From: Paraburkholderia sp. CNPSo 3274
GTDB lineage: Bacteria > Pseudomonadota > Gammaproteobacteria > Burkholderiales > Burkholderiaceae
Assembly (NCBI RefSeq): GCF_024206475.1
Contig: NZ_JAMBPR010000003.1
Location: 1-64,000 of the forward strand
Direction of reading: 5' to 3'
DNA: 64,000 nucleotides
Part shown: one piece after another, positions 26,692 to 35,418 of the stretch
Layout of the letters: every line of letters starts with the position of its first letter
Position numbering within the stretch: position 1 is the stretch's first letter
The notes under the pieces: model-generated
Database searches by the model: none
What the model was told of the DNA's origin: nothing
Seen by the model: the letters and a program-made list of their open reading frames with translations, nothing else
Translations under genes and position numbers: made by a program

Positions 26692-26798
26692 CCAAGGCCT
26701 CCTGTCGAAAAAAGCGCGTCGTTCAATGGAGGATCATTATCGCGACGCTACGGGTAACCGAAAATTGCGGATTTCGCGAAAAGGCATTACCTTTGGGC
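26692..26798. promoter_or_regulatory. Divergent LysR/mdlC promoter with inverted repeat
   Basis: The 107-bp gap between mdlC and its LysR gene contains GGTAA at 26753 and TTACC near 26787, with an inner near-palindrome CGAAAAT TGCGG ATTTCG. This fits a LysR T-N11-A type operator in a shared promoter; positions are by eye. Confidence 0.45.
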
Positions 26799-27707
26799 AT
26801 GACTTACAACCTCCAGCAACTCCAGGCGTTCGCGACCATCGTGTCCGCGGGCAGTCTCGGGCGCGCGGCGGAAACGCTGCACGTGACCCAGCCCGCGCTT
26901 TCGCGCGCGATCCGCCGCCTCGAGGAGCAAGTGGGCGCGCCGCTTTTCGAGCGGCATTCGCGCGGTATGCACCTCACCGCTGTGGGTGAGGCGCTCCTGC
27001 CGCACGCCATCCTGCTGCAGCGCGAAGCGGAGCAGGCGCGCGAGGAAATCGACGCCATGCGCGGCCTCGCGCGCGGCACGATCCGCGTGGGCGCGGTGGG
27101 CAGCATTGCGAGCCTCGTGTTGCCGCTCGCCGTGAGCGGCGTGCTGCGGCGCTGGCCGGGGCTGCGCGTCGAGATTCTCGAAGGCGTGTGGGACCGGCTC
27201 GCCGATGCGCTCGTCAAACGCGAGATCGATCTCGCGCTCAGCATGGCCGTGCCCGATACCGACGAAATTGCGGCCATTGGCGATTGCCGCTGGGAAGATT
27301 GCAGCTACGTGGTGGCGGCGCACGATCATCCGTTGCGCGCGAAGCCCGATCTCACGCTCGCGGACACCTTGAACGAGCAATGGGCAATTCCGCCGCGCGG
27401 CACGGCGCCGTTCGAGCACATGGAGCAGGCCTTCGCTGCGCAAGGGCTGGGCCTGCCAAACGTGGTGGTGCAAACGCGCTCGATCACGGCGCTCAAGAGT
27501 CTCGTGGCGCGCTCGGGGTTCCTGAGCTGGATGGCATCGACGATGTACCTCACGGAAAGCAAGGCGGGTGTGTTCGATACGTTGGACATGCCGGGGGTAG
27601 AGGGCCGGCGCATGCTCACCGCGTTTCGCCGGCGGCACGGCATTCTGCCGAGCCCGGCGGTTAAGCTGCTGGAGCAGTTGCGCACGTTGACGGCGGTGCC
27701 GCACTAA
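26799..27707 (+). CDS. LysR-family regulator of the benzoylformate operon
   Basis: A 302-residue LysR protein starting MTYNLQQLQAFATIV, with the helix-turn-helix at about residues 4-60 (GSLGRAAETLHVTQPALSRAIRRLE) and a CbnR-type effector domain. It diverges from the mdlC operon across a 107-bp promoter containing an inverted repeat, so it very likely controls that operon, with an arylglyoxylate, mandelate or benzoate as probable inducer (inference). The ATG at 26799 is preferred over a TTG two codons earlier. Confidence 0.87.
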   Translation: MTYNLQQLQAFATIVSAGSLGRAAETLHVTQPALSRAIRRLEEQVGAPLFERHSRGMHLTAVGEALLPHAILLQREAEQAREEIDAMRGLARGTIRVGAVGSIASLVLPLAVSGVLRRWPGLRVEILEGVWDRLADALVKREIDLALSMAVPDTDEIAAIGDCRWEDCSYVVAAHDHPLRAKPDLTLADTLNEQWAIPPRGTAPFEHMEQAFAAQGLGLPNVVVQTRSITALKSLVARSGFLSWMASTMYLTESKAGVFDTLDMPGVEGRRMLTAFRRRHGILPSPAVKLLEQLRTLTAVPH

Positions 27708-27716
27708 CGCCGTTCG

Positions 27717-29702
27717 TCATTCGTCACGCAAGAGACGCCCCGCGTTCGCGATCACCACGAACGTGCCCACGTTGTGCAGCACCGCGCTCGCCACGGCGCT
27801 CAACACGCCTAGCGCCGCCAGCGTGATGACGGCCACCGTCCACCCGAGCCCGATCGCCGCATTCCCCGTCGCGATGCGCCGGCAGCGCCGCCCGAGGCGC
27901 ACGCTGTCCGGCACGCGGCGCAGGTCGTCGGCGAGCAGCACGATATCGGCGGCGGCCACGGCGATATCGATGCCGCGCTCGCCCATCGCCACGCTAGTTG
28001 CGCCGGCCTTGATCGCGAGCACGTCGTTCAGGCCGTCGCCGACCACCATCGGGCGATGCCCCGCGCCGATCTCGCCTAGCACATAGTCGAGCTTGTCGTG
28101 CGGCAGCGCATGCGCCACCACGGTGTCGATACCCACTTCGGCCGCCACGCGGCGCGCCACGCGCTCGCGGTCGCCCGTGAGCAGCGTCGCACGCTCGATG
28201 CCGAGCGCACGCAGCCCGTCCAACGCTTCGCGCGCTTCCGGGCGCACCGTGTCGGCAAAACCGAACCATGCGAGCAGCCTGCCATTGAGCGCGATGCCTG
28301 CGCACGGGCCTTCCAGCTCCGCGGGCGTGGGCGGCAGCACGCTCACGTATTGTTCGAGCAGGTCATGGCGGCCCAGCACGGCGTCGCCTTCCGGCATCGT
28401 CGCGAGCACGCCAAGTCCGCGCAGTTCGCGCGCGTGCGGGGGCGGCCCGGTTTGCGGCGTTCCCGGCGCGCCGTAGCGCAACAGCGCGCGACACACCGGA
28501 TGCGCGCTGACCTGGGCGAGCTGCACGGCCAGCGCCAGCGTGCTGGCTTCGTCCGCGTCCGGCTGCAGCGCCACCGTCGTCACGCGCAACTCGCCGTGCG
28601 TGAGCGTGCCCGTCTTGTCGATCACGAGCGTATCGATTTCGGCCAGCACGTCGATAAAGGCAGCATTCCTGAACAAGATCCCGCGCCGCGCGCCCGCCGC
28701 AATGCCGGCGATCGCGGTGGAAGGCGCCGCTAGCACGAGCGCGCATGGGCACGCGGCGACGATCACCGCCAGCATGGCCGAAGCGTTCGCGCTCACGAAC
28801 CACACGATCGCCGCGATCAGCAGCACGAGCGCGAGATAGGCGTCCATATAGCGTTCGAGCGCCTGCGTGATGGGCGGCTTCGCGGCCTCGGCGCGCTGCA
28901 TCAACTCGACGACCTTGCCCAGCGTCGAGGCCTCGCCGACGTGCGTGATCTCCACGCGCAACGGGCCGTCCAGATTCATCGCGCCGCCGAATACGCGTGC
29001 GCCCTCGCGCGCGTCCTGCGGCAACGATTCGCCCGTGATCGGCCCGTTGTCGATGGCCGAGCGGCCGTGCCGCACGATACCGTCCGCGGGCACGCGCGAG
29101 CCAGGCAGCACATCGACGACGTCGCCGGGGCGCAGCGCGTCATAGGGCACGGTCTCGATCGCGCCCGCGGCACTCACACGCCGCACGTCGCCGGCAGTGA
29201 GGCGGCCCAGCGCGCGGATCGCTTCCTGCGAGCCGAGCACACTGCGCTCTTCGAGCGCGTGGCCGAAGGTCATCACGATGGGCAAGAGCGCGGCCGTCGT
29301 CATGTCGCCCACGGCCCACGCGCCCAGCATGGCGAGCGCGATGAGGCGGTCGGTCACGCCGTGCAGACTCGGCGTCTTGAGGCTGCGCCACGCGCCCGCG
29401 AACACGGGCGGCGCGACCACGAGCGAGGCCGCCGCAGCCAGCACTTGTGCAAGCGTGGCGTTGCCGGGCGCCAGATGCGGCCACGCGAGCGAGAGCAGCA
29501 GCAACGCGCCCGCGAAAAGCGCGAGCAACGTGTGGCGCGTGATGGCGCGGCGCTCGGCGTTCGACATGACGAGCGTGGCGACGGATGGCCCTCCGTGACC
29601 TTCGTGCCCTTCGTGCGCGCGGCCGTGTGCGTGCGCGGATTTGGCTTCATGAGCGGCGCCGGGCGCGCGATGACTCGTCGGCGTTTCGTAGGGCGTGGTC
29701 AT
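27717..29702 (-). CDS. P1B-type heavy-metal ATPase with His-rich N-terminus
   Basis: A 661-residue metal-transporting P-type ATPase. The N-terminal 40 residues carry seven His (positions 11-36) instead of a ferredoxin-like HMA domain. Then come the membrane region, the actuator motif TGES (223-226), the metal-site CPC (318-320), the phosphorylation motif DKTGT (362-366), SAHPVCRAL (the P1B HP motif), and GDGLNDVLA. In the last helix the sequence LHNVGTFVVIANAGRLL lacks the Asp of ZntA/CadA, so the usual Zn/Cd subgroup signature is not met and the metal is uncertain. Its start overlaps the stop of the upstream SPFH gene by 4 bases, the end of a four-gene operon. Confidence 0.88.
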   Translation of the reverse strand: MTTPYETPTSHRAPGAAHEAKSAHAHGRAHEGHEGHGGPSVATLVMSNAERRAITRHTLLALFAGALLLLSLAWPHLAPGNATLAQVLAAAASLVVAPPVFAGAWRSLKTPSLHGVTDRLIALAMLGAWAVGDMTTAALLPIVMTFGHALEERSVLGSQEAIRALGRLTAGDVRRVSAAGAIETVPYDALRPGDVVDVLPGSRVPADGIVRHGRSAIDNGPITGESLPQDAREGARVFGGAMNLDGPLRVEITHVGEASTLGKVVELMQRAEAAKPPITQALERYMDAYLALVLLIAAIVWFVSANASAMLAVIVAACPCALVLAAPSTAIAGIAAGARRGILFRNAAFIDVLAEIDTLVIDKTGTLTHGELRVTTVALQPDADEASTLALAVQLAQVSAHPVCRALLRYGAPGTPQTGPPPHARELRGLGVLATMPEGDAVLGRHDLLEQYVSVLPPTPAELEGPCAGIALNGRLLAWFGFADTVRPEAREALDGLRALGIERATLLTGDRERVARRVAAEVGIDTVVAHALPHDKLDYVLGEIGAGHRPMVVGDGLNDVLAIKAGATSVAMGERGIDIAVAAADIVLLADDLRRVPDSVRLGRRCRRIATGNAAIGLGWTVAVITLAALGVLSAVASAVLHNVGTFVVIANAGRLLRDE

Positions 29703-30733
29703 GGCGCGCGCCCCGGCAGCACGAGGCTCGATGCGTCGTTGGGGTCGAGCGTCGTCACGTGGGCAGCGTGCGCAAGTACCGCCTGCACGCGGTCGCGATA
29801 CGCGCGCGCAAGCAGCCCCGGATCGTGGTTCGCGCCGAGTGCCGCTTCGAGCTGCGCGATCGTCGAGGTTTCCGACTGCGCCGTCGCCACGCGCTCCGCA
29901 GCGCTGGCTTGCGCGTCCTGCACGATGCGGTCGGCGCTTTGCTGCGCGTGCTGCCGCGTCTTTTCCGCAAGCGTGCGCGCCTGCGCGACATCGCGCTCGG
30001 CGTTCTGCAGCGAAGTCAGCACCGCGTTGAACGCATCGACGGCCAAGGCCGGAAACGACGCTTGCAGATCCATGCGCGAGACCTCGATGCCGAGCCCCGC
30101 ATGCGCGGCAGTCAGCGCGTCGAGCTGACGCTGGACCGCGCGCGCGAGATCGCCGCGCAATTGCTCGCGGCGCGCCGCCATTTGCTGATCGGCGGCCACC
30201 ATCTCCGGGCGCGCGACGAGGATCGAATCGAGGTCGCGTTGCGCGGCAGTTTGCGCGACCGCGGCTGAGACAATGCGCTCGAGCGCGGCGTCAAGATGCT
30301 CGAGCTGCAACGCATACGCGTAAGGGTCGCTCACACGGTAGAACAACGTGGCGCTCACCTGCACGACGCCGTTGTCGCCCGTGAGCACGTAGCCGGAACC
30401 CGCGAGCGCGTCGCTTGCATCGCTCAATTGCGCCGGCGCACCCGGATCGCGCGTGAGCGAGACGATGCGCCGTTCGAGCACACGCTCGCTGCCCGGTACG
30501 AGCAGCACCGTTTCGAACGGACGCGGCAACGCGACGAGCAGCCCCGCGCCCTGGCTGCGCACGTAGGCGCCAAAGCGCATCACGACGGCGCTACTGTCCG
30601 CGGGAATGCGGCGCACGTTCGACGTGGCCCACGCGAGCGCGGCCAGCACGGCCAGCGCCGCCACGAACCAGAACGACAGACGCACCGCCTGTGCGCCGGG
30701 CCCGAGCGCCGGGAAGTTGTCGCTCGTGCTCAT
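29699..30733 (-). CDS. SPFH/HflC-like membrane protein
   Basis: A 344-residue single-pass protein. One membrane helix (SFWFVAALAVLAALAWA, residues about 20-37) is followed by an SPFH (stomatin/prohibitin/flotillin/HflKC) domain: VRRIPADSSAVVMRFG opens it and LFYRVSDPYAYALQLE lies in the middle. A long Ala/Gln/Glu-rich coiled-coil follows (about 225-300). SPFH proteins build ring or cage assemblies that mark membrane microdomains and control membrane proteases. Its ATG overlaps the upstream gene's stop by 4 bases, and its stop overlaps the ATPase start by 4 bases, implying translational coupling with the metal pump. Confidence 0.82.
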   Translation of the reverse strand: MSTSDNFPALGPGAQAVRLSFWFVAALAVLAALAWATSNVRRIPADSSAVVMRFGAYVRSQGAGLLVALPRPFETVLLVPGSERVLERRIVSLTRDPGAPAQLSDASDALAGSGYVLTGDNGVVQVSATLFYRVSDPYAYALQLEHLDAALERIVSAAVAQTAAQRDLDSILVARPEMVAADQQMAARREQLRGDLARAVQRQLDALTAAHAGLGIEVSRMDLQASFPALAVDAFNAVLTSLQNAERDVAQARTLAEKTRQHAQQSADRIVQDAQASAAERVATAQSETSTIAQLEAALGANHDPGLLARAYRDRVQAVLAHAAHVTTLDPNDASSLVLPGRAP

Positions 30734-31806
30734 GGCGTGTGCCCGCGTACGCGCGCGGTGGTTGCGGGCGCAACGACCGAGCCCGACGGCGCCGTGGCCG
30801 CACCGAGCCCAGGCGGCCCCTGCACCAGCGCGCGGAACGGCGCGGCGTCGGTGCGCAAGATCAGGTTCGTGTTGCTATTGACGACCGTACCGAGCGTGTC
30901 GAGCGAGCGCAGCATCGTATAGAGCTGCGGATCGGCGGCGTAGCTCTTGCCGTAGATCGCCGCTGCATCCTTGCGCGATTGCGCTTCGATATCGGCGGCT
31001 TTCACGTTGGCGTCGGCGATCAGCACGCGCGCGTCGCGATCGGCGTCCGAGCGGATCTGCGCCGCTTCGCGCAGGCCTTCGGCCGTGCGCTGCGCGGCCA
31101 CGGTCTCGCGCTCGGCGCGCATGCGATCGACCGTCGCCGCCAGCGTCATGGCGGGCAGCGTGAGGCGTTCGAGCCCGACCTGGACAACGTGCACGCCATA
31201 GGCCGCATACACCTGCGCATCGACCTGGCGGCGCAGCGCCTCTTCGAATGCAGCGATGCGAACCTGCGACGGATCGGTATTCACGAGCGACGCGAGATCG
31301 AAGCCGGCAGATGTAGTCTGCAAGGCCGAGCCGACCAGCGAGCGAATCTGGCGCGCGGCTTCGTCGGGTTCGTTGCGCACCGCGCGCACGAAGCGGCCAA
31401 TGTCGTTTGAGTTGGCGGGCACGCGCCAGGCCACATAGGCCTGCACGATGATGCGCAAACCATCGCGCGTGCCGACGTCCTGCAGGCCGCTCGAGGTCGT
31501 GTGCAGCCGCAGATCCACCGGCACCGCGGCCTCGATGGGCGCGGGCAGGCGCCACGCGAGACCGGGCCGCAGCAGCACGCGCACGGGGTCGCCAAAGCGC
31601 GTGACGACGGTGGCCTCGCCCTCGCGCACCTGCACGACGCTCGCCACGATGAGCGCGACGATCACGCAGAACAGTGCGAACGCCACACGCAACGCAAAAC
31701 GCCGGGGATTCACGCGCGCGAATCCACCTGAGCCGCCTGCGCCGCCTGCGCCGTGGTCATGATGATGATGAGAATGCGCATCGCCGTGCGTATGCAAAAG
31801 GCTCAC
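30730..31806 (-). CDS. HflC-like SPFH protein with His-rich N-terminus
   Basis: A 358-residue protein. The first 18 residues hold eight His (MSLLHTHGDAHSHHHHDHG), followed by a Gly-rich linker, a single membrane helix (ALRVAFALFCVIVALIVAS, about 38-56) and an SPFH domain starting VVQVREGEATVVTRFGDPVR, the HflC pattern. The C-terminal part includes the HflC-like AAAIYGKSYAADPQLYTMLRS segment. It differs from housekeeping HflC by the His tail, which can bind divalent metals, and by operon context with a metal ATPase. It overlaps the next gene by 4 bases and lies 36 bases downstream of the large SPFH gene. Confidence 0.83.
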   Translation of the reverse strand: MSLLHTHGDAHSHHHHDHGAGGAGGSGGFARVNPRRFALRVAFALFCVIVALIVASVVQVREGEATVVTRFGDPVRVLLRPGLAWRLPAPIEAAVPVDLRLHTTSSGLQDVGTRDGLRIIVQAYVAWRVPANSNDIGRFVRAVRNEPDEAARQIRSLVGSALQTTSAGFDLASLVNTDPSQVRIAAFEEALRRQVDAQVYAAYGVHVVQVGLERLTLPAMTLAATVDRMRAERETVAAQRTAEGLREAAQIRSDADRDARVLIADANVKAADIEAQSRKDAAAIYGKSYAADPQLYTMLRSLDTLGTVVNSNTNLILRTDAAPFRALVQGPPGLGAATAPSGSVVAPATTARVRGHTP

Positions 31807-31842
31807 GTTCGAATCACCTTGCTCTGTCTATGGGGTAACGGG

Positions 31843-33729
31843 CTACCACGCCTTTTTCATGCCTGCCGCCGTGGCCGGGCTCAACGTGCGCAGGTCGATC
31901 GTCGCGCGGCTGCCACTCGCGAGCCGGTCGTCGATCACGGTCACGCTCGCGTTCTTCAGCCCTTTTTGCAGGCTGTGCAGGTAATACTCGAAGCCGAATG
32001 CCGGGCCGCCGAGCTGCTGCGCGATCACATCGGCGTCGAAGCCGATCTGCTGGGCGCGCGCGGCAGCAAGCGTGTCCGCCGCGTTCGCGCTGCCCTGCGC
32101 GATGATCTCGATCGCCTGCTGCTGCGCTTGCCCGAGCGCCGCCGCCGCAAAGCCGTGCGCCTGCACCACACTGGCCTGCGCGCGAATTTGCGCGGCCTGC
32201 ACGCCGTGATACGCGGCGGCCGCGCCCGCGGGCGGATGCACGCTCTCGATCACTACGGCCACGACCTCGATGCCGCTCGCGAGCCGGTCCAGCTCGTGCT
32301 GCACGGCGCCGCGCAACGCGCCGGCCATGGCCGTTTGCGGCGTGTCGAGCAGCGACGGCAGCGTGCGCGACGCGAGGTAACGCACGACCTCGCGGTTCGC
32401 GATCGAGCGCACCGTGTCGTCCATATCGACAGCGCGATAGAGCGAGGCGCGCGCCGCCGCGTCCGTGAGGCCGACGCGATAGTCGAGCCGCACGTCCGCG
32501 CTCACGATCTGGAACGCCTGCTGAGCGCCGCTCGTGCCCGCTATCACCTGAGTCGTCTCCCAGGGGTGCGCCACGTCCCAAAGGCGATTCAATTGCGCGG
32601 GTGTGTCGCCATCTGCGGAAACGGGAGGCGCGGCGCGGCTGCTGTCGTTCGCGCTGCCGGAGACGATCAGTTGATGAACCGCGCCGTTGTCGATCACGCG
32701 CGCGCGACCGAAGGGCCAGGGCAGGCCCGCATGCAGGCCCGGCTGCCACACGGCGGCAGGTGCGCCAAAGCGCTCGTACACGGCGCGCTGATCGGGGCCG
32801 AGGATCGTCACGCCGCCGAGCAGCCAGCCTGCCGCCACCATGGCCACCAGCGCGCCTGGCAGGAGGCGAGCGAAACTTTGGAGCGCCCAGTTCTGCCGCA
32901 GATCGATGCCATAGCGCATACGCAATTGGGCATTGAACGCGGCGACCGGACGTGCCTGCACGCTCAGCACGCCCGCGATGGTGCTATGCAGGAAGCGGCC
33001 CTCGTCGGGCTTTCCCAACGCAGCGAGCAGTGCACGCAGGCCGAGTTCGACGGCAATCGCGCCAGAAAGCAGGGCGACGATACGCACGAGCCACGTAAGC
33101 GGCTCGCCCGCATAAGCCGACGCCGCTACCGAAGCCGCCATACTCAACGCAGCGACGAGCACCGCACGCAACAGCCCGGCGAGCGCGGCGGATTCGCGCG
33201 ATTGCGCGCCACGCTGCGCATGAAAGCGCTCGGCCACGAGCGCAGCAAAAGCGATGACGAGCGTAGCGGCGCCCGCTACGAGAAAAGGCGCAGATTCACG
33301 TTGCGAAACCGTTGGCGCGAAGGCGGGAGACGTCCACGCAGAGGCGGCGAACGCCAGCGAAACGAGTGCGGCGAGCGGCGCGATCCAAACTTGCCACGGA
33401 AGCGACTGCAGCAGGCCGCGCATGTCGGCGGCCTCCGAATTGCGCTGGAACGCGAGGCGCAAGAGGCGCAGCAAAGTCTTCGAGACTGGTTCGCCGGCCG
33501 GCGCGCGCGCCGCCAACAGCCGCGTGCCGAAGACGACGATGAAGAGATTGAGGCACGCGCTCGACATGACGGCGCACATGCGCGCGTCGAACGGCAGAGC
33601 GGCAACGAAAGCCAGCGCGCCGAACACGCAAGCCAACCCCAACGCGGACCAGCCAAGCCGCGTCTGGCCCCCACGACCGCCGAGCCAGCCATATCCTTCG
33701 CGGTGGTCGCGCGCTACGCGATGCATCAT
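31843..33729 (-). CDS. Large SPFH (HflK-like) protein with polytopic membrane domain
   Basis: A 628-residue protein. The first half (about residues 1-320) has around six hydrophobic segments, for example LGWSALGLACVFGALAFVA and WIAPLAALVSLAFAASAW. The SPFH domain follows: VTILGPDQRAVYERFGAP, then PGLHAGLPWPFGRARVIDNG. An HflK-type tail comes last, with GIEVVAVVIESVHPPAGAAA and AYHGVQAAQIRAQASV. Ordinary HflK has one membrane helix, so the multi-pass front is unusual. The ATG at 33729 has an AAGGA site 6 bases upstream. It is first gene of the operon; three SPFH paralogues in a row with a P1B ATPase suggest a dedicated membrane platform. Confidence 0.8.
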   Translation of the reverse strand: MMHRVARDHREGYGWLGGRGGQTRLGWSALGLACVFGALAFVAALPFDARMCAVMSSACLNLFIVVFGTRLLAARAPAGEPVSKTLLRLLRLAFQRNSEAADMRGLLQSLPWQVWIAPLAALVSLAFAASAWTSPAFAPTVSQRESAPFLVAGAATLVIAFAALVAERFHAQRGAQSRESAALAGLLRAVLVAALSMAASVAASAYAGEPLTWLVRIVALLSGAIAVELGLRALLAALGKPDEGRFLHSTIAGVLSVQARPVAAFNAQLRMRYGIDLRQNWALQSFARLLPGALVAMVAAGWLLGGVTILGPDQRAVYERFGAPAAVWQPGLHAGLPWPFGRARVIDNGAVHQLIVSGSANDSSRAAPPVSADGDTPAQLNRLWDVAHPWETTQVIAGTSGAQQAFQIVSADVRLDYRVGLTDAAARASLYRAVDMDDTVRSIANREVVRYLASRTLPSLLDTPQTAMAGALRGAVQHELDRLASGIEVVAVVIESVHPPAGAAAAYHGVQAAQIRAQASVVQAHGFAAAALGQAQQQAIEIIAQGSANAADTLAAARAQQIGFDADVIAQQLGGPAFGFEYYLHSLQKGLKNASVTVIDDRLASGSRATIDLRTLSPATAAGMKKAW

Positions 33730-33814: not shown

Positions 33815-33868
33815 CGCGCGCCCAATGTAACGCGCTCAAAACCGAAACTCAATATAACTGGGCGCGCG
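33815..33868. promoter_or_regulatory. Perfect 10-bp inverted repeat in the SPFH/GGDEF divergent region
   Basis: CGCGCGCCCA (33815-33824) and TGGGCGCGCG (33859-33868) form a perfect inverted repeat around a 34-base AT-richer centre. It lies in the divergent promoter region of the SPFH operon and the GGDEF gene and could be an operator or a stable leader hairpin. Confidence 0.4.
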
Positions 33869-34008
33869 CATCCGTGCCCCACTATTTAGCCGATTCGGAG
33901 CACAATACCTTCAGTCAAATTTGTCTGCTTTCCGGACGCGAGCGGCCCCTCACGCTGTCACGCCACGATCACAATTCTCGAGCTGCGCATCAACCCCAAA
34001 GTCATCAT

Positions 34009-35418
34009 ATGGACGGCTTGCTGATCGGACCGGCATCACGCAGGCAGGCGCTCTTCGCCAGCGTATGCGCATTTGCGATCCTCCTCACGCTCGCGCTCGC
34101 GGCGCCGCGTGCGCGCGACGCTTTGCCTGGCATCGCCCCGTTCATGCCGATGTGCGCGCTCACGGTGTTCACCACGTCGAGCATCGCGGCGTTCCTGCTG
34201 GGCGCGCGTTTCGCGGCTACGCGCGTGGCCATGCTCGCCGCGCTGGGCGGCGCCTACGCGTTCACGGCCATTACCGTCGCGCTGCAGCTGTTGATGTTTC
34301 CTGGCGTGTTCGCGCGCACGGGGCTGTTCGGCGCGCTCCCGTATAGCGCCGCATGGATGTGGGTGTTCTGGCACGCAGGCTTTCCCGCGCTCGTCATCGT
34401 GGCCGAACTGGTGAGAAAGCGCCTGCCCGCCCCGCCGTTCGCCCGCGAACGTCTCGACGCGCGCGGCTGGCTGCTGATCGCCGGCCCGGCGGCAGTCGCC
34501 GCCCTGCTGGGCGTGCTCGTCACGCACGTCGATCTCGCATCGCCGTTCCACGACGTTGCGAACGCTGCGCCGTCGCCTGGTCCTTCGCCGACGTCGGCCA
34601 TCGCGAACAATCTCGCGGGCCTCGTGATTTGCGCGCTCAACCTGATCGCCATCGCGCTCGTGCTGCTCAAGGGACGGCTGCGCCTCGTGCTCGATTTGTG
34701 GATCGTGGTGGCGCTGCTCGCCTCGCTCGTCGACGCCGCGCTCAATACGCTCAGCATCGAGCGCTTCACCGTGGGCTGGTATGTCGCGCGCGTGTTCAGC
34801 ATGTTCGCGCCTGGCGTGCTCGTGTGCGTGCTGGTGTGGGAAGTGACGGCGCTCTATCGCCAGCTCGCCGAAGAACACGCCACGCTGATCCGCGCCTCCG
34901 CGCGCGATGCGCTCACGCGCATCTACAACCGCAGCTATTTCGACGAGCAGTTCCACCAGGCCTTCGAGCGCGCCGCGCGCAGCGGCCAACCGCTCTCGCT
35001 CGTGATGCTCGATGTCGATCACTTCAAGCACTACAACGACGCTTTCGGCCATCTGCACGGCGACGCCTGCCTCGGCGCCGTAGCGGGTGCGCTCGCAGTC
35101 ACGCTTGCGAGCACGCTGCACCCGCCACGCGGTTTCGTCGCGCGCTACGGCGGCGAAGAATTCGCGCTCGTCCTGCCCGATACCGGCGCGGATGAAGCCG
35201 CGGCGCTCGCCGAACGCGCACGCGCCGCCGTCGAGCAGCTCGGCATTCCCTCTCCCGCAGCAGGCGGCCTCGTCACGGTGAGCGCGGGCTGCGCCACCCG
35301 CGACGCGATCGTTGCCTCGTCCCCCAATGCGCTGATCGAAGCCGCCGATGCCGCGTTGTATGCGGCCAAACACGCTGGCCGCAACCGCGTGAGCCACGCG
35401 GGCGCGAGCATCGCATAA
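34009..35418 (+). CDS. Membrane diguanylate cyclase (MASE4-like + GGDEF)
   Basis: A 469-residue protein. About eight N-terminal membrane helices (residues 15-285) resemble a MASE4-type sensor domain. A short linker (ALYRQLAEEHATLIRASARD) leads to a GGDEF domain with DALTRIYNRSYFDE at its start and the active-site GGEEF at 381-385, so cyclic-di-GMP synthesis is expected. No RxxD inhibitory site is evident five residues upstream of GGEEF. The start is uncertain: the frame is open from 33874, and ATG 34009 lacks a clear ribosome site but gives a sensible membrane N-terminus. It is divergent from the SPFH/ATPase operon. Confidence 0.8.
   Translation: MDGLLIGPASRRQALFASVCAFAILLTLALAAPRARDALPGIAPFMPMCALTVFTTSSIAAFLLGARFAATRVAMLAALGGAYAFTAITVALQLLMFPGVFARTGLFGALPYSAAWMWVFWHAGFPALVIVAELVRKRLPAPPFARERLDARGWLLIAGPAAVAALLGVLVTHVDLASPFHDVANAAPSPGPSPTSAIANNLAGLVICALNLIAIALVLLKGRLRLVLDLWIVVALLASLVDAALNTLSIERFTVGWYVARVFSMFAPGVLVCVLVWEVTALYRQLAEEHATLIRASARDALTRIYNRSYFDEQFHQAFERAARSGQPLSLVMLDVDHFKHYNDAFGHLHGDACLGAVAGALAVTLASTLHPPRGFVARYGGEEFALVLPDTGADEAAALAERARAAVEQLGIPSPAAGGLVTVSAGCATRDAIVASSPNALIEAADAALYAAKHAGRNRVSHAGASIA

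Follow-up and report, generated by a model that had tools for sequence, protein, structure and literature searches.

Three SPFH proteins and an HmtA-class metal ATPase form a conserved four-gene unit that may be a caged metal pump

We analysed a stretch of 64,000 nucleotides from Paraburkholderia sp. CNPSo 3274 (assembly GCF_024206475.1, contig NZ_JAMBPR010000003.1, positions 1 to 64,000; hereafter the window), in which three genes for SPFH proteins (A, B and C, the trio) are followed by a gene for a P1B-type metal ATPase (D, the pump). That trio and pump are one functional unit, as the original prediction from the DNA letters had proposed, is strongly supported, because the genes co-occur reciprocally, keep a fixed order, share overlapping frames and decay together. 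The unit matches PA2439-PA2435 of Pseudomonas aeruginosa, whose pump, HmtA, is a reported zinc and copper importer within a zinc-starvation regulon, which makes the metal exporter first proposed the weaker reading. We give a probability of about one half to a reading in which the trio cages one P1B pump, the counterpart of HmtA, and would help to supply zinc or copper to the cell.

Results

The original description of four closely spaced or overlapping genes, encoding a multi-pass SPFH protein, two single-pass SPFH proteins and a CPC-type pump, agrees with the coordinates, the Pfam assignments, the helix predictions and the structure model of A. A, B and C contain the Pfam domain Band_7, and D contains E1-E2_ATPase and Hydrolase. 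The genes encode 628, 358, 344 and 661 residues, respectively, all on the minus strand, with 36 nt between A and B and 4-nt overlaps at both B/C and C/D, and are predicted to be one operon. The host genome is approximately 9.4 Mb, and the closest named relatives of A are from Paraburkholderia, with P. acidiphila at 92%. The features of the unit are as follows.

31843..33729, minus strand: gene A, HflK-type SPFH protein with an N-terminal seven-helix membrane domain (Band_7; structure model; own clade beside C and HflK)
32812..33678, minus strand: membrane domain of A, residues 18-306 (structure model; fold search; invariant E167, E228 and R232)
30730..31806, minus strand: gene B, HflC-type SPFH protein (Band_7; NCBIfam; solved-structure alignment; sister to HflC in the tree)
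31753..31806, minus strand: N-terminal tail of B, rich in His (8 among the 18 residues) and predicted to be cytoplasmic (sequence; conservation counts)
29699..30733, minus strand: gene C, HflK-type SPFH protein (Band_7; NCBIfam; solved-structure alignment; tree)
27717..29702, minus strand: gene D, HmtA-class P1B-type metal ATPase (Pfam; NCBIfam; structure; family searches)
29595..29702, minus strand: N-terminal tail of D with 7 His among its 36 residues, poorly conserved (sequence; conservation counts)
28743..28751, minus strand: CPC motif of D, residues 318-320 (present in 60 of 60 aligned rows)
27762..27776, minus strand: HNVGT of D, residues 643-647, with His replacing the Zn/Cd Asp (alignment)
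33824..33852, minus strand: candidate sigma-70-type promoter TTGAGT-N17-TACATT upstream of A (conserved in relatives)

Conserved co-occurrence of the four genes, the first check that the original prediction had suggested, was found. A contig scan with 17 aligned A proteins returned 65 loci from Burkholderiaceae, Pseudomonas, a Pantoea-labelled genome, Nevskia, Thalassocella, Acetobacteraceae, other alphaproteobacteria and several metagenome-assembled genomes (MAGs); it used two short exact A patterns, so diverged copies are under-sampled. A-B-C-D stand in the same order on a single strand in 61 of these 65 loci, with A split in one (L067) and C split in another (L084). Three of the four exceptions (L090, L095 and L097) end at contig edges, and the fourth (L091), from a MAG labelled Acidiferrales, has an A-type gene with no B, C or D within 12.5 kb. 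When each gene was searched separately in 299 genomes of the family, A was found in 22, B in the same 22, and D in 21 of these and in none besides. The only exception in the family (G626) still has A and a shortened form of B but neither C nor D, which is joint decay; in this remnant (C3:517000-527500, L103) an oxidoreductase-like gene comes next.

Searches that started from the pump gave the same pairing. D was present in 13 of 25 genomes of the genus of P. aeruginosa, and the trio lay upstream in order in 13 of 13; these comprise two known ABCD loci (L073 and L075) and 11 newly inspected ones, six of the 13 (L073, L075 and four identical loci) being also in the A-first set. The survey of the second Pseudomonas genus, that of P. 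syringae, covered D and B: D was found in 107 of 179 genomes, and these 107 are also the ones with B; the two genes always share a contig and are separated by 1030-1187 nt, which leaves space for C. Ten plasmid records match A, and ABCD was present in all six that were inspected, two of them conjugative (Klebsiella aerogenes and Burkholderia ubonensis). On the K. aerogenes plasmid (L105) the unit lies near a Tn3-family transposase, and on the P. sprentiae megaplasmid (L106) it adjoins zinc ATP-binding cassette (ABC) transporter genes, a DUF2946 gene and the gene of the copper chaperone PCu(A)C. Class-wide the unit is rare, with hits in 2 of 369 genomes, namely that of the window itself and one with a 30% partial match. 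The family survey indicated that the first-look scan misses nothing obvious within the family. Absences are nevertheless softer than presences, because the class and family surveys scored few candidates in each genome (3-6), as did the 179-genome survey (7 for D, at most 11 for B); all were scored in the 25-genome survey.

The junctions are also conserved: of 61 loci, 56 have overlapping B and C frames (4 nt in 48 of them), and of 58, 48 have overlapping C and D frames (4 nt in 44), orthologue starts having been set by rule, so that junction and tail counts carry some error. Spacing between C and D exceeds 100 nt in six loci, with an extra small gene there in the P. aeruginosa and P. citronellolis group; this gene, of approximately 170 residues and secreted-protein-like (L068, L073-L076 and L079), occupies the position of PA2436. 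Each of 10 whole genomes has a single D-type pump (at least 715 bits), the next-best pump scoring at most 277 bits. Pairwise distances computed for each of the four proteins across 48 loci correlate with one another at 0.92-0.96, which points to joint inheritance and not to contact. Among the top 40 neighbour groups no additional gene is constant: the biggest reach 17 of 65 loci, all Burkholderiaceae, and two generic families (LysR-type and amino-acid-type ABC ATPase) each occur in seven loci across genera. In the window the unit is flanked by a divergent MASE4-GGDEF cyclase gene (33874-35418) and a convergent LysR gene (26793-27707), both seen only in close relatives, the latter in 4 of the 65 loci at 95-98% identity.

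These data bear directly on whether the SPFH proteins and the pump are physically linked at all or are separate parts of a metal-stress regulon that share an operon for timing. Operons often hold partners that make no contact, and contact between trio and pump is here something that we infer; however, near-absolute pairing over several classes and on plasmids, overlapping frames and the lack of any other constant gene make a purely temporal association quite improbable.

The SPFH proteins have HflK or HflC as their best NCBIfam matches, all under the family cut-offs (112.4 of 134.4 bits for B, 103.5 of 159.4 for C and 50.6 of 159.4 for A). In a tree of 51 rows, consisting of the window, 14 of the 65 loci, Escherichia coli HflK and HflC and four rows from the window genome, A, B and C each form a single clade with support of 100/99 or better, B beside HflC, and A and C grouping with HflK. 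All three have the HflK/HflC architecture of an SPFH domain and coiled coil behind an N-terminal membrane anchor, and both elements align with chains from solved HflK and HflC structures. B and C have one predicted membrane helix each. The structure model of A (mean predicted local distance difference test (pLDDT) 77, predicted template modelling score 0.43, 66 sequences) has seven membrane helices, followed by the SPFH domain and coiled coil. Each of the two long inner loops of A contains six lysines and arginines and the outer loops none or one, a distribution that fits a topology with the N-terminus inside and the SPFH domain outside. E167, E228 and R232 of the membrane domain are identical in 56 of 56 rows, and the domain has no fold match outside SPFH proteins among the PDB matches listed, of which 48 of 50 were SPFH proteins or their complexes and two vault protein.

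Since A, B and C branch from or next to HflC and HflK and carry FtsH-modulator annotations, and FtsH is a zinc protease (PMC12005517), the trio could be a second, paralogous FtsH modulator acting under metal stress, with the operon merely serving to make trio and pump together. Yet its constant partner is the pump and not ftsH, and the window genome encodes a separate hflK-hflC. We also compared the FtsH-contact residues R141, E142 and R185 of E. coli HflK: all 12 of the C proteins that we compared have E, D or N at the R185 position, which is a weak test of an FtsH role because the genome's own HflK also differs, having T. Taken together, this makes a second FtsH modulator unlikely. At these loci, proteins annotated as 'protease modulator HflK/HflC' probably do something else.

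D exceeds the NCBIfam cut-offs of both ATPase-IB_hvy and ATPase-IB2_Cd, and its structure model has a mean pLDDT of 81 with residues 1-44 disordered. CPC is conserved in every aligned row. The usual Zn/Cd Asp of helix 8 is absent, as first noted: the alignment places His643, within an HNxxT motif, at this position, with HN in 59 of 59 aligned rows that reach the site and T in 57, and a strict HN..T pattern limited to the last 40 residues was found in 47 of 56 D sequences. Thr622 stands at the Lys position of ZntA-type pumps. Signatures of the known classes are an Asp in the last helix (DxG) and a Lys in the preceding helix for P1B-2 (ZntA-type), YN....P and M..SS for P1B-1 (CopA-type), and SPC in helix 4 with HEGxT in the last helix for P1B-4. 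DxG is absent in the 56 D sequences, and YN....P and M..SS occur in 0 of 56. D thus does not fit the P1B-2 signature, given His643, Thr622 and the missing DxG, nor that of P1B-1, given the missing YN....P and M..SS, nor that of P1B-4, given CPC and HNxxT in place of SPC and HEGxT. D is a distinct pump class that combines CPC and HNxxT without the Zn/Cd Asp.

The sequence contains the eight His in the first 18 residues of B and the seven in the first 36 of D on which the original prediction drew, and their conservation differs. At least seven His in the first 40 residues are found in 53 of 63 B proteins of the 65-locus set, so that the tail is more than would be expected by chance. It is present in all 51 beta- and gammaproteobacterial proteins (Burkholderiaceae 36/36, Pseudomonas 12/12, Pantoea-labelled 1/1, other gammaproteobacteria 2/2), in 2 of 8 alphaproteobacterial ones and in 0 of 4 other MAG rows. 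Plasmid-borne B proteins have 11 (R. tumorigenes), 10 (P. sprentiae), 12 (B. ubonensis) and 1 (K. aerogenes) His, the last being gammaproteobacterial, outside the 63-row set and without a His tail. The tail of D is weakly kept, with at least seven His in 20 of 59. The picture of His-rich tails therefore stands for B in beta- and gammaproteobacteria, is weak for D and does not extend to most alphaproteobacterial copies. E. coli HflK and HflC have no tail His and the HflK of the window genome has one. By homology, both tails would face the cytoplasm.

The gene content of the window, three SPFH genes and then an HmtA-class P1B ATPase in one direction, is that of the hmtA cluster of P. aeruginosa (PA2439-PA2435, with the trio known as PaFlo5-6-7). 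We observed the same content and order in PA7 (L075), and the match to PA2439-PA2435 was made by order and content, not by PAO1 accession. Over the aligned parts the PA7 proteins are identical to D at 56%, B at 69%, C at 52% and A at 44%. In a znuA mutant, PA2434, 2435, 2437, 2438 and 2439 are reported to be up 5.6- to 14.4-fold, with a weak Zur site (PMC4542158). Cluster proteins are more abundant in zinc-depleted cells, with mixed p-values (PMC11761036), PA2437-2439 increase alongside the Zur regulon under N-acetylcysteine (PMC9431628), and Zur shifts the PA2439 promoter (PMC8531726). HmtA is described as importing Zn and Cu and not Ag or Cd (PMC8456098), and cells that overexpress it are reported to contain more zinc and copper, although import is there concluded from overexpression and a review asks for confirmation (PMC10393844).

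We scanned for Zur-type boxes with two patterns, requiring at least 10 of 11 matching positions for a box; the second pattern was chosen once some of these sequences had been viewed, so its p-values are optimistic. All 12 Pseudomonas loci of the set and the Pantoea-labelled locus have a box upstream of A; of seven additional Pseudomonas loci, six reach a score of 10 or more and one scores 9. Boxes were found in 0 of 8 alphaproteobacterial, 0 of 4 MAG and 0 of 2 other gammaproteobacterial loci. Among 31 Burkholderiaceae (the window and 30 of the 36 loci) there was one, 29 of the 30 non-window loci being without; the single palindrome, in Trinickia fusca (L053), lies between the operon and a divergent gene resembling a TonB-dependent receptor. 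The window operon has no box (best 10/16 and 8/11, p 0.96 and 0.71), although the genome's own znuA has a near-perfect one (15/16; L102, about 2521), which makes it a helpful internal control for studies of the regulon. For this reason direct Zur control in the window's lineage is unlikely, and its unit is probably a homologue with other regulation and not a Zur-controlled copy. TTGA(G/A)T-N17-TA(C/A)ATT is present in 29 of 36 Burkholderiaceae loci and in the window, compared with 30 of 2000 random stretches, a predicted sigma-70-type promoter that is conserved among the Burkholderiaceae copies.

The Pseudomonas evidence also bears on the proposal from which this work started, a scaffolded metal exporter for tolerance, in which metal gathered in the cytoplasm by the His tails would be expelled by the pump. 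Most P1B pumps are exporters, both tails are placed in the cytoplasm by homology and the sequence models class D as Cd/Zn-type. However, the Pseudomonas counterpart increases in zinc starvation and has Zur-type boxes, HmtA raises cell metal when overexpressed (PMC10393844) and many copies have no His tails, so that an export role is quite unlikely.

Discussion

Here, we describe a unit in which pump and trio are each other's constant partner, and because SPFH rings enclose membrane proteins elsewhere, a dedicated cage is the economical explanation. By analogy with HflK/HflC, A, B and C would have a cytoplasmic N-terminus and a periplasmic SPFH domain, and B would alternate with C and A in a ring that holds the pump in the enclosed membrane patch. 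The seven-helix domain of A might fill or seal this ring and touch the pump, and the B tails might line its cytoplasmic face as a His-rich collar, receiving or buffering metal there. The direction (uptake) and the metal (zinc, perhaps copper) would follow the published Pseudomonas counterpart. Zur-type boxes in Pseudomonas, the published zinc-starvation induction, and the zinc ABC transporter and copper-chaperone genes beside the P. sprentiae unit all point to zinc. A bolder version, which we put forward as tentative, is that three SPFH subunits, one with a seven-helix domain, cage the HmtA-class ATPase, that a cytoplasmic His collar takes the metal, and that the cage is what enables uptake by a P1B pump; HmtA would then so far have been studied without its partners.

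A caged pump could also face the other way and load metal into the periplasm for an enzyme or chaperone, the cage holding the metal in place. There are P1B pumps that serve enzyme assembly, homology places the SPFH domains in the periplasm, and the P. sprentiae copy is near the PCu(A)C gene. Against this, no target gene is conserved beside the unit and induction by zinc starvation would require a special reason, making periplasmic loading quite improbable.

Several points count against a caged zinc or copper importer. The inheritance pattern is also compatible with co-regulated genes, contact between trio and pump being a prediction from the genes, and the client of the trio may be FtsH. A further 3507 D-like proteins lie outside the co-occurrence counts, and the His tail is missing in 10 of 63 B copies. 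With the Zur-type box lacking at the window operon and in nearly all other Burkholderiaceae loci scanned, a zinc-starvation role in this lineage would be drawn from the Pseudomonas counterpart. There, hmtA mRNA is reported as low and not repressed by zinc (PMC8531726), a review states that Zur was not found at hmtA, in conflict with PMC8531726 (PMC10393844), and deletion of the trio in PA14 has mild effects, with approximately 20% less biofilm and attenuation in Galleria (PMC13086221).

The gene cluster is already in print, both as a zinc-regulated cluster and, for the trio, as PaFlo5-6-7, whereas the original prediction knew of no described system of this form; the coupling of trio and pump seems undescribed. 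Our literature search returned no paper with both 'HmtA' and 'SPFH' and none linking trio and pump as one system, and HmtA together with HflK or HflC appeared, among the matches listed, only in PMC4542158 and PMC11761036. In PMC13086221, HmtA, ATPase, EDTA, TPEN and copper are unmentioned and 'zinc' appears once, for FtsH. Of ten other Pseudomonas reference genomes, the same paper found the trio in two (PMC13086221), and our counts suggest that it is commoner. The unit thereby joins two lines of research, on HmtA and on PaFlo5-6-7, that were not found together in the literature searched, and is a likely case of a bacterial SPFH complex whose client is not a protease. The literature treats HmtA as an unusual importer among P-type metal pumps, for which the review wants confirmation (PMC10393844); with the trio in 13 of 13 and B in 107 of 107 pump carriers, the importer question becomes directly testable by comparing the pump with and without its partners.

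Compared with its Pseudomonas counterparts, which carry a Zur-type box and, in the P. aeruginosa group, the small extra gene between C and D, the window unit has neither. Among solved pumps, D is closest by sequence to the P1B-4 type ATPase 7qbz and by fold to ZntA (4umw) and 7qbz, keeping CPC but carrying HNxxT in the last helix. HflK and HflC of E. coli have one membrane helix each and periplasmic SPFH domains, and 12 pairs make a cage around FtsH (PMC12005517); the cage has also been described in an open form (PMC13220708). The SPFH domains and coiled coils of the window unit resemble theirs, B being HflC-type and A and C HflK-type; in contrast, the window has three SPFH genes, one with seven membrane helices, and the partner is a P-type pump instead of FtsH. 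Flotillin-associated rhodopsins likewise pair the gene of a bacterial transporter-family membrane protein with its own SPFH gene, although the SPFH branch and the membrane protein are different and the function was not established there (PMC10308929). Stomatin rings, which enclose aquaporin-1 (AQP1) and UT-B, are an SPFH ring around a membrane transporter, the arrangement that we propose for D from its genes, but they are eukaryotic, form a cytoplasmic dome and have no operon partner (PMC12407830).

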